From Parvibaculaceae bacterium PLY_AMNH_Bact1 (lineage in GTDB: Bacteria > Pseudomonadota > Alphaproteobacteria > Parvibaculales > Parvibaculaceae): a stretch of DNA of 64,000 nt. Position 1 is the first letter of the stretch. Every line of letters begins with the position of its first letter. The stretch spans positions 1,612,001 to 1,676,000 of the forward strand of contig CP126168.1 of NCBI GenBank assembly GCA_032881465.1. The letters are read 5' to 3'. This document shows positions 5,243 through 6,382 of this stretch, piece by piece. Below the pieces are notes generated by a model that was not told the DNA's origin, ran no database searches, and saw nothing but the letters and a program-made list of their open reading frames with translations. The position numbers and the translations under genes are program-made.

Positions 5243-6382
5243 CTATTTCGCGGGGATGTCTCCAGCCGCCTGCTCCGCCTTAAACTTGGCGACGAATGAG
5301 CTGAGGGTTCCGGCTCCGATGGCCTCTCGAAGATCTGCCATCAGCGACTGGTAATAGGCAATATTGTTCCAGGAAAGCAGCATCATTCCGAGGATTTCAC
5401 CGTTTTTTAGGAGGTGATGCAGGTAGGCACGGGAGTAATCCCGCGCAGCCGGACATGAACTTGTTTCATCAAGCGGTCGAGGGTCGTTCGCATGCCGGGC
5501 ATTTTTGAGGTTAACTTTTCCGAAACGGGTGAAAGCCTGGCCATGTCGACCAGAGCGTGTCGGCATCACACAATCAAACATGTCGATCCCTCGCGAGACG
5601 GCTTCCACCAAATCGTCAGGCGTGCCGACACCCATAAGATAGCGCGGTCGGTCTTTGGGCAGTAAAGGTGCAGTGAACTCCAGCACGCGGAGCATTTCGT
5701 CCTGCCCCTCACCAACCGCGAGACCCCCGATGGCATATCCATCAAAGCCGATGTCCTGCAGAGCAGCGGCACTTGTCTGACGCAGGTCTTCATAAACACT
5801 CCCCTGCACGATCCCAAATAGGGCCTGGCCTTCTTTCCGGTGGGGCTGCGCCTTGAAAGCGTCTTTTGACCGCTTCGCCCAGCGCGTTGATAGCTGCATC
5901 GACTGATTGGCTTCATCGTGAGTTGCCGGGAACGGTGTGCATTCATCCAACACCATTTGAATGTCCGCCCCAAGAAGACATTGGATCTCAATGCTGCGTT
6001 CCGGCGAGAGCTCATAGGAAGAGCCATCAATATGGCTCTGAAAGGTGACACCCTCCTCACTCATTTTGCGCAGTTTGGAGAGAGACATAACCTGAAAGCC
6101 ACCGCTGTCGGTCAAAATGGGACCGGGCCAATTCATGAAGGAATGAAGACCGCCAAGGCCATCGATCTCTTCAGCACCTGGGCGCAACATGAGGTGGTAG
6201 GTATTCCCGAGCACAATGTCCGCGCCGGTCTCTTTCACTTGATCTGTATAGAGCGCTTTGACTGTGCCCGCAGTTCCAACTGGCATAAAGGCCGGCGTTT
6301 GAATGTCACCACGAGGGGTATGGATCACACCGCGCCGCGCAGCACCATCCTCCGCTAGAAGGTCATACGTAAAGGAGCTCAT
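5243..6382 (-). CDS. tgt: Queuine tRNA-ribosyltransferase (tRNA-guanine transglycosylase)
   Basis: Exchanges guanine-34 for preQ1 in tRNAs with GUN anticodons. At 379 residues the length is normal. Seen: [11 protein letters not shown], the catalytic region [15 protein letters not shown], and the nucleophile region [31 protein letters not shown]. The C-terminal structural zinc site, normally C-x-C-x2-C-x25-H, reads S308-x-C310-x2-A313 and N339 (in [10 protein letters not shown]), so three of the four ligands are absent. The surrounding residues ([13 protein letters not shown]-like) are intact, so this is not a frameshift. It lies 5 bases after queA, the next enzyme of the queuosine pathway, in the same operon. 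Function is likely retained in a zinc-independent form, but that is inference. Confidence 0.95.

Follow-up and report, generated by a model that had tools for sequence, protein, structure and literature searches.

Can a tRNA-guanine transglycosylase (Tgt) dispense with its structural zinc? The question is raised by a tgt gene residing in the window, the whole stretch of 64,000 nucleotides of the genome of Parvibaculaceae bacterium PLY_AMNH_Bact1 under study (contig CP126168.1, positions 1,612,001 to 1,676,000). The zinc domain is one of two hallmarks of TGTs, and is present in human QTRT1, according to the available part of PMC6165067; in an excerpt of PMC9508795, TGT is listed among the enzymes requiring zinc for activity, with reference to a 1995 E. 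coli study. In zinc-type enzymes, the zinc is clamped ahead of the interface helix by three cysteines of a C-terminal loop and one histidine of the following helix. Mutants in the zinc ligands were reportedly impaired in the 1995 E. coli work. Tgt is expected to exchange guanine 34 of GUN tRNAs for preQ1, and to act as a homodimer; QueA, and then QueG, would complete queuosine after this step.

The gene is an intact tgt. The product scores 530.8 bits against the Pfam profile PF01702 (cut-off 26.3), 498.5 bits against TIGR00430, above the curated cut-off of 306.75, and its residues 4-371 align to Zymomonas mobilis Tgt with an E value of 3.8e-159 (phmmer). Catalytic and base-recognition motifs (D92, D146, C148, Q193, GGLAVGE, D270) are all present. 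In the gapless alignment D92, D270, D146, Q193 and G220 match D102, D280, D156, Q203 and G230 of the Z. mobilis enzyme, the last three of which we take to have base-recognition roles. The helix following the zinc loop retains Y316, Y320 and H323, presumably the equivalents of dimer-interface residues in Z. mobilis Tgt. D102 and D280 are described as the catalytic aspartates in the available text of PMC4425180. The complete zinc set C-x-C-x2-C-x25-H is not found, and S308, C310, A313 and N339 occupy the four ligand positions. The zinc region aligns without gaps to the Z. mobilis segment DSECHCAVCQKWSRAYIHHL, and SWNNIAYYQ is paired to TEHNIAFYQ around the zinc histidine (phmmer). The initial annotation had reported the absence of three of four ligands at 5366-5461, in the right frame and in intact surroundings; residues and coordinates are correct, as checked on codons and alignment. 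Features are collected in Table 1.

Table 1. Features at the tgt locus, in window coordinates
Feature	Position	Strand	Basis or remarks
tgt, tRNA-guanine transglycosylase, 379 aa (P0001)	5243..6382	-	PF01702, TIGR00430, Z. mobilis Tgt alignment
Codon 308, AGT, Ser, first zinc-Cys position	5459..5461	-	Alignment to Z. mobilis Tgt
Codon 310, TGT, Cys, sole retained ligand position	5453..5455	-	Alignment to Z. mobilis Tgt
Codon 313, GCG, Ala, third zinc-Cys position	5444..5446	-	Alignment to Z. mobilis Tgt
Codon 339, AAC, Asn, zinc-His position	5366..5368	-	Alignment to Z. mobilis Tgt
queA, 349 aa	6388..7437	-	PF02547, 409.5 bits; directly upstream of tgt
tRNA-Lys gene	5050-5125		Downstream of tgt

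The gene neighbourhood is ordinary, as had been surmised. Only 5 bases separate the stop of queA, the pathway step after tgt, from the start of tgt on the same strand. With up to about 1.5 kb of flanking DNA considered, the QueA of the window has a match next to 97 of 107 Tgts lacking the zinc set, and next to 40 of 61 of zinc type. On the other side of tgt, a short protein with a marginal match to the YHYH domain (28.9 bits, cut-off 25) is encoded at 4303-4947, between tgt and a gene for an AMP-binding enzyme. The latter belongs to a row of genes at 732-3941 on the minus strand, possibly a small acyl-transfer cluster, whose other products are a hydrolase-like protein of the DUF2920 type and a carrier protein.

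A sequencing or frame error is excluded, because independent genomes of the genus, the family and the order carry the same loss. Six Tgts of the same genus, 86-94% identical, feature S/C/A combined with N in four cases, with S in two. None of the close relatives inspected for Cys/His at the ligand positions carries the zinc set, and the claimed loss stands. The relatives share it; the same positions are not always devoid of Cys or His, since L009 and L010, from one genus of the family of the window organism, keep the histidine (G-C-S-H).

How far the zinc-less state extends has been assessed within Pseudomonadota by aligning 288 Tgt sequences, and classing them by the four ligand columns. Sequences with C-C-C-H in the four columns were regarded as zinc-type, and in at least one of them (L167) the third cysteine is followed by an additional residue; a strict motif left 5 loci unclassified, while column alignment classed all 288. 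The set excludes duplicates (L172, L245), a repeat locus (L171) and loci other than Tgt (L202-L204). The C-C-C-H set is found in 103 sequences, and 185 are zinc-less. The exact state S-C-A-N, for which a survey had been suggested beforehand, accounts for 28 of the 288 rows. In the order of the window organism, 37 of 40 genomes have a Tgt match, and the zinc set is absent in all 30 Tgts sampled from these 37 genomes, with the states S-C-A-N, S-C-A-I, S-C-A-S and L-C-A-N, and G-C-S-H in one genus. The window gene is thus no outlier: the zinc-less state is that of all Tgts sampled in its own order. Two further orders are similarly populated. In that of genome G195, which clusters with named Hyphomicrobiales on trees, Tgt occurs in 146 of 150 genomes, and the 69 newly sampled out of these 146 are all zinc-less; in that of G335, clustering with named Caulobacterales, Tgt occurs in 100 of 100 genomes, and 48 of 49 newly sampled Tgts are zinc-less. 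The remaining sequence of the Caulobacterales-like order, L294 (G602:C25:40840-42018), is a distant Tgt with a full C-C-C-H set, 43% and 56% identical to an order-mate over two pieces, and looks like a replacement by a foreign zinc-type gene.

Outside these orders the picture is patchy. The alphaproteobacterial class sample includes 60 of the 360 genomes with Tgt (class draw 387), selected family by family among the top matches listed; 19 of the 60 are zinc-less, which is not a class-wide rate, as the sample favours the kin of the window organism. Named records, the best 80 of 591 matches, tell the groups apart. Among the matches listed, zinc-less Tgts make up 6/6 of Hyphomicrobiales (Rhizobium, Mesorhizobium, Xanthobacter, Brucella and others), 5/5 of Caulobacterales, Caulobacter included, 1/1 of Hyphomonadales, 2/2 of Pelagibacterales, 1/4 of Acetobacterales, 1/2 of sequences labelled Rickettsiales, 2/4 of Alphaproteobacteria without order and 1/7 of records without class. 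Again among the matches listed, C-C-C-H is kept in 8/8 Rhodobacterales and 4/4 Sphingomonadales, zinc-less Tgts are missing in Rhodospirillales (0/2) and Puniceispirillales (0/1), and all 33 beta- and gammaproteobacterial sequences keep the set, the zinc-less count being 0/34 when Magnetococcia are included. L120, labelled as a betaproteobacterium (a Candidatus Symbiobacter MAG), has a Tgt clustering with those of alphaproteobacteria (support 94).

Trees were built leaving out the zinc columns. A quick tree of 244 of the 288 rows, from which near-copies had been removed, needs 12 changes of state, 5 of which are forced by starred branches; a careful tree of 59 hand-picked rows, with L109 removed as a near-copy, needs 6, of which 4 are forced. 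A single origin of the zinc-less state is rejected (p-AU 4.3e-5), and was obtained in none of 200 bootstrap trees of the careful set. In the careful tree the rows of the window organism's family cluster with the Caulobacterales-like and the Hyphomicrobiales-like rows, forming a group of 25, all zinc-less, on an unstarred branch (support 85/94), and four separate further losses are found in families f24 and f112, at locus L097 and in the Acetobacteraceae sequence L134. Families f3 and f108 stand beside two zinc-type rows with weak support (83/43), and would reflect either separate losses, or one loss followed by a regain. The direction is not given by the counts of changes; C-C-C-H is plausibly ancestral, because it is present in the other proteobacteria sampled, and in human QTRT1 according to the part of PMC6165067 at hand. 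We are dealing with a real, old and repeated loss, normal for the lineage, in an otherwise ordinary Tgt.

The ligands had been supposed to be replaced together. This does not hold: relatives display partial states, and 74 of the 185 zinc-less rows retain the histidine. The first and the third cysteine survive in 2 of these rows each, C310 in 168; three ligands are retained in one row (L039, C-C-S-H), two in 66, one in 111, none in 7. Partial states are represented by C-C-S-H, S-C-S-H and I/V/L-C-S-H, further ones by S-C-A followed by N, I, A or V, and in no row among the 288 is the histidine lost with the cysteines intact. The frequent retention of C310 and histidine points to a stepwise loss: the outer pair of cysteines would have disappeared first in most lineages, the histidine later, and more than once, as one genus inside the family of the window organism still has it. 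The order is not uniform. L126 (S-N-C-H) and L162 (C-N-L-N), both from Pelagibacterales, and L209 (S-N-C-I) lack the second cysteine, and have kept or regained another one. In 17 of the 185 zinc-less rows C310 has given way to G, V, E, W, N, S, T or H. The second cysteine is also gone in L134 from Acetobacteraceae (D-S-A-H), and has changed to Gly or Val in family f52 of the order of G335 (L253, L254, L261, L264, L265). Residues 313 and 339 may be coupled. Among 147 zinc-less rows, 57 combine Ser313 and His339, and 73 combine A, T or L with a residue other than His; 11 have Ser without His, one has Ala with His, and 5 fall elsewhere. On the tree, 3.4 independent pairs change the same way, 0.0 the opposite way, and 5.6 show no difference (median p 0.25), and the pairing is a lead only. 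An aliphatic first position accompanied by a retained histidine gave no signal on the tree.

Is the zinc-less enzyme functional? One could imagine that the gene is decaying, or that its function has changed, the zinc site having been lost in an enzyme no longer needed. The lost residues are indeed identical in all 103 zinc-type rows, and a single internal TGA interrupts two Tgt matches, one in the own order (G011:C1:70554-71675) and one in the Hyphomicrobiales-like order (G507:C1:2782870-2783976), which are possible pseudogenes or assembly errors. Yet the catalytic motifs of the window protein are intact, and all 288 loci are open over 150 residues or more, and carry the family motifs. Within the genus, dS could be computed for four of six pairs and, at 1.3-2.4, is near saturation; dN/dS in these pairs ranges from 0.018 to 0.042. 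The gene is under strong purifying selection. Besides queA and tgt, queC, queF and queG are encoded in the genome. In the set of 15 genomes searched, QueG was found in 14 and not in the zinc-less G227, and the QueC match is weak in the zinc-type genome G178. The zinc loop is not drifting, being as conserved in zinc-less as in zinc-type sequences: the mean entropy of residues 306-316 is 1.46 versus 1.61, that outside residues 303-343 is 1.14 versus 1.23. Y320, H323, E329 and N340 are invariant in 185/185 zinc-less and 103/103 zinc-type rows. Genetic data point in the same direction. In Sinorhizobium meliloti, as reported in the accessible part of PMC3568095, tgt mutants have cytoskeletal and symbiosis phenotypes, and preQ1 rescues queC and queF mutants, not tgt mutants; the mutants are insertions, and the only complementation described there is that of queF. 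The Tgt of S. meliloti is very probably zinc-less, judging from its relatives, since the six named Hyphomicrobiales among the matches listed and the 69 sequences from the order of G195 all are, and the phenotypes are therefore very probably genetic evidence on a zinc-less Tgt. Decay or change of function can hardly be credited against this background, and the earlier notion that the gene is probably functional is backed by purifying selection and by the set of queuosine pathway genes.

A functional protein could still bind zinc, or another metal, through a remodelled set made of C310 plus D315, H322, H323, H280, or N339 and waters. C310 and the histidine persist in many zinc-less rows, as said, and therefore some members of the group may have kept a residual or changed ability to bind metal; D315 (132/185) and H280 (169/185) are common in zinc-less sequences, and rare in the zinc-type group, where H280 is found in at most 1 of 103 rows. 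Against this, C310 is lost in some rows, D315 occurs in part of the group only, zinc-type Tgts preserve H322 and H323 equally well, and the window protein has Ser, Ala and Asn at the other three positions. The 16 of 185 rows without H280 include several separately arisen zinc-less lineages, and of 5 independent pairs on supported branches about 1 shows this residue changing together with the loss. In the 288-row alignment no Cys or His is invariant in zinc-less and absent from zinc-type sequences, H280 being the closest case. A remodelled metal site is on the whole rather unlikely. Residues compensating for the loss have been sought as well. The columns differing strongly between the two groups are H280, Q48, Q144, D315, S337 and A342; out of 12 columns tested for tracking the loss none reached 0.05, and the 5 independent pairs on supported branches are too few. 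H280 changes along with the loss in about 1.0, Q144 in about 0.4 of these pairs, and both accordingly look like lineage effects.

The predicted structure is that of a common Tgt. The AlphaFold2 model, obtained with 39 aligned sequences, has the expected TIM-barrel fold with the C-terminal extension, a mean pLDDT of 91.6, and block means of 93-97 for residues 301-350. The top Foldseek match is Z. mobilis Tgt (1ozm; TM 0.96/0.97, rmsd 1.1 A over 368 columns), a similarity to be read keeping in mind that AlphaFold2 ignores metals, knows zinc-type homologues, and may copy the zinc-bound conformation. The C-terminal zinc-binding domain of Z. mobilis Tgt contributes to the dimer interface, as stated in the available part of PMC4425180. 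In the window protein, small uncharged side chains (Ser, Cys, Ala, Asn) would fill the place of the metal by ordinary packing; the backbone would be unchanged, and the loop and the interface helix with Y316, Y320 and H323 would stay in place without zinc. Backbone and helix packing would carry the clamp in place of the metal. The variant independent of zinc and held by the fold, one of the options in the initial annotation, is the best reading: the protein is probably a working Tgt with a C-terminal clamp holding without structural zinc, where both the absence of zinc and the activity are what we infer. A wider scenario is more doubtful. At least four conversions from a zinc-clamped to a metal-free form could have occurred in Alphaproteobacteria along a repeated, selected route, mostly by changing Cys into Ser/Ala at two positions, and then His into Asn, Ile, Ala or Val, while C310 would be retained for a structural or redox function of its own; this is put forward as a tentative idea, with the chances leaning against it.

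Alternatively, these genomes, or the queuosine pathway, could economise on zinc in general, and the loss in Tgt would be one instance of this. The ribosomal protein L36 of the window genome (G000:C1:2753326-2753448) lacks the zinc Cys set, as it does in 14 other alphaproteobacteria. L36 lacks the set also in G178, G316 and G602, whose Tgts keep the zinc ligands; as L36 is deprived of the set irrespective of the state of Tgt, the two losses do not track each other. Avoidance of zinc throughout the pathway is rejected, because QueC retains its Cys4 motif in all 9 genomes sampled of the 15 searched, that of the window included. Zinc saving is an improbable explanation.

We found no report on the loss of the Tgt zinc set in the titles and abstract openings listed by searches of the open-licence PMC literature, and the available portions of PMC6165067, PMC9508795, PMC5395182, PMC3568095, PMC4425180 and PMC4381286 do not mention it. 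A Tgt staying intact after the loss of its zinc ligands suggests that the metal is replaceable. Zinc-less Tgts, which occur also in model genera such as Caulobacter and rhizobia, would show this, and natural pairs of zinc-type and zinc-less enzymes could reveal whether the role of zinc lies in folding, at the dimer interface or in tRNA binding. If the reading is correct, queuosine insertion would be independent of structural zinc in the own, the Hyphomicrobiales-like and the Caulobacterales-like orders, and at the Tgt step one should not assume for these orders that making queuosine requires zinc; the QueC step still has its Cys4 motif. A supposed requirement would so be turned into a testable question with natural controls.

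Known systems provide terms of comparison. Z. mobilis Tgt (1pud, 1ozm and many others) shares fold, active site and interface helix with the window protein, to which it is 64% identical, but has the complete C-x-C-x2-C...H set where the latter has S-x-C-x2-A...N. Human QTRT1 (6h42) belongs to the same family; unlike the window Tgt, it binds zinc by three cysteines and one histidine, and inserts queuine. Zinc-free ribosomal proteins are involved in paralogue switching under zinc limitation. The 'C-' type of L36 resembles the window Tgt in that a structural zinc set has been replaced in an otherwise conserved protein, but L36 is a small ribosomal protein, and the window genome has a single Tgt, no second copy, of zinc type or otherwise, having been found in it. 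The closest precedent is provided by glutamyl-tRNA synthetases. The zinc motif is absent from many bacterial forms, and a zinc-free graft is functional, as reported in the accessible part of PMC4381286. Here too a structural zinc site is missing in many bacterial representatives, as in Tgt; enzyme and domain are unrelated, however, and the domain, sometimes deleted in the synthetases, is kept in Tgt.
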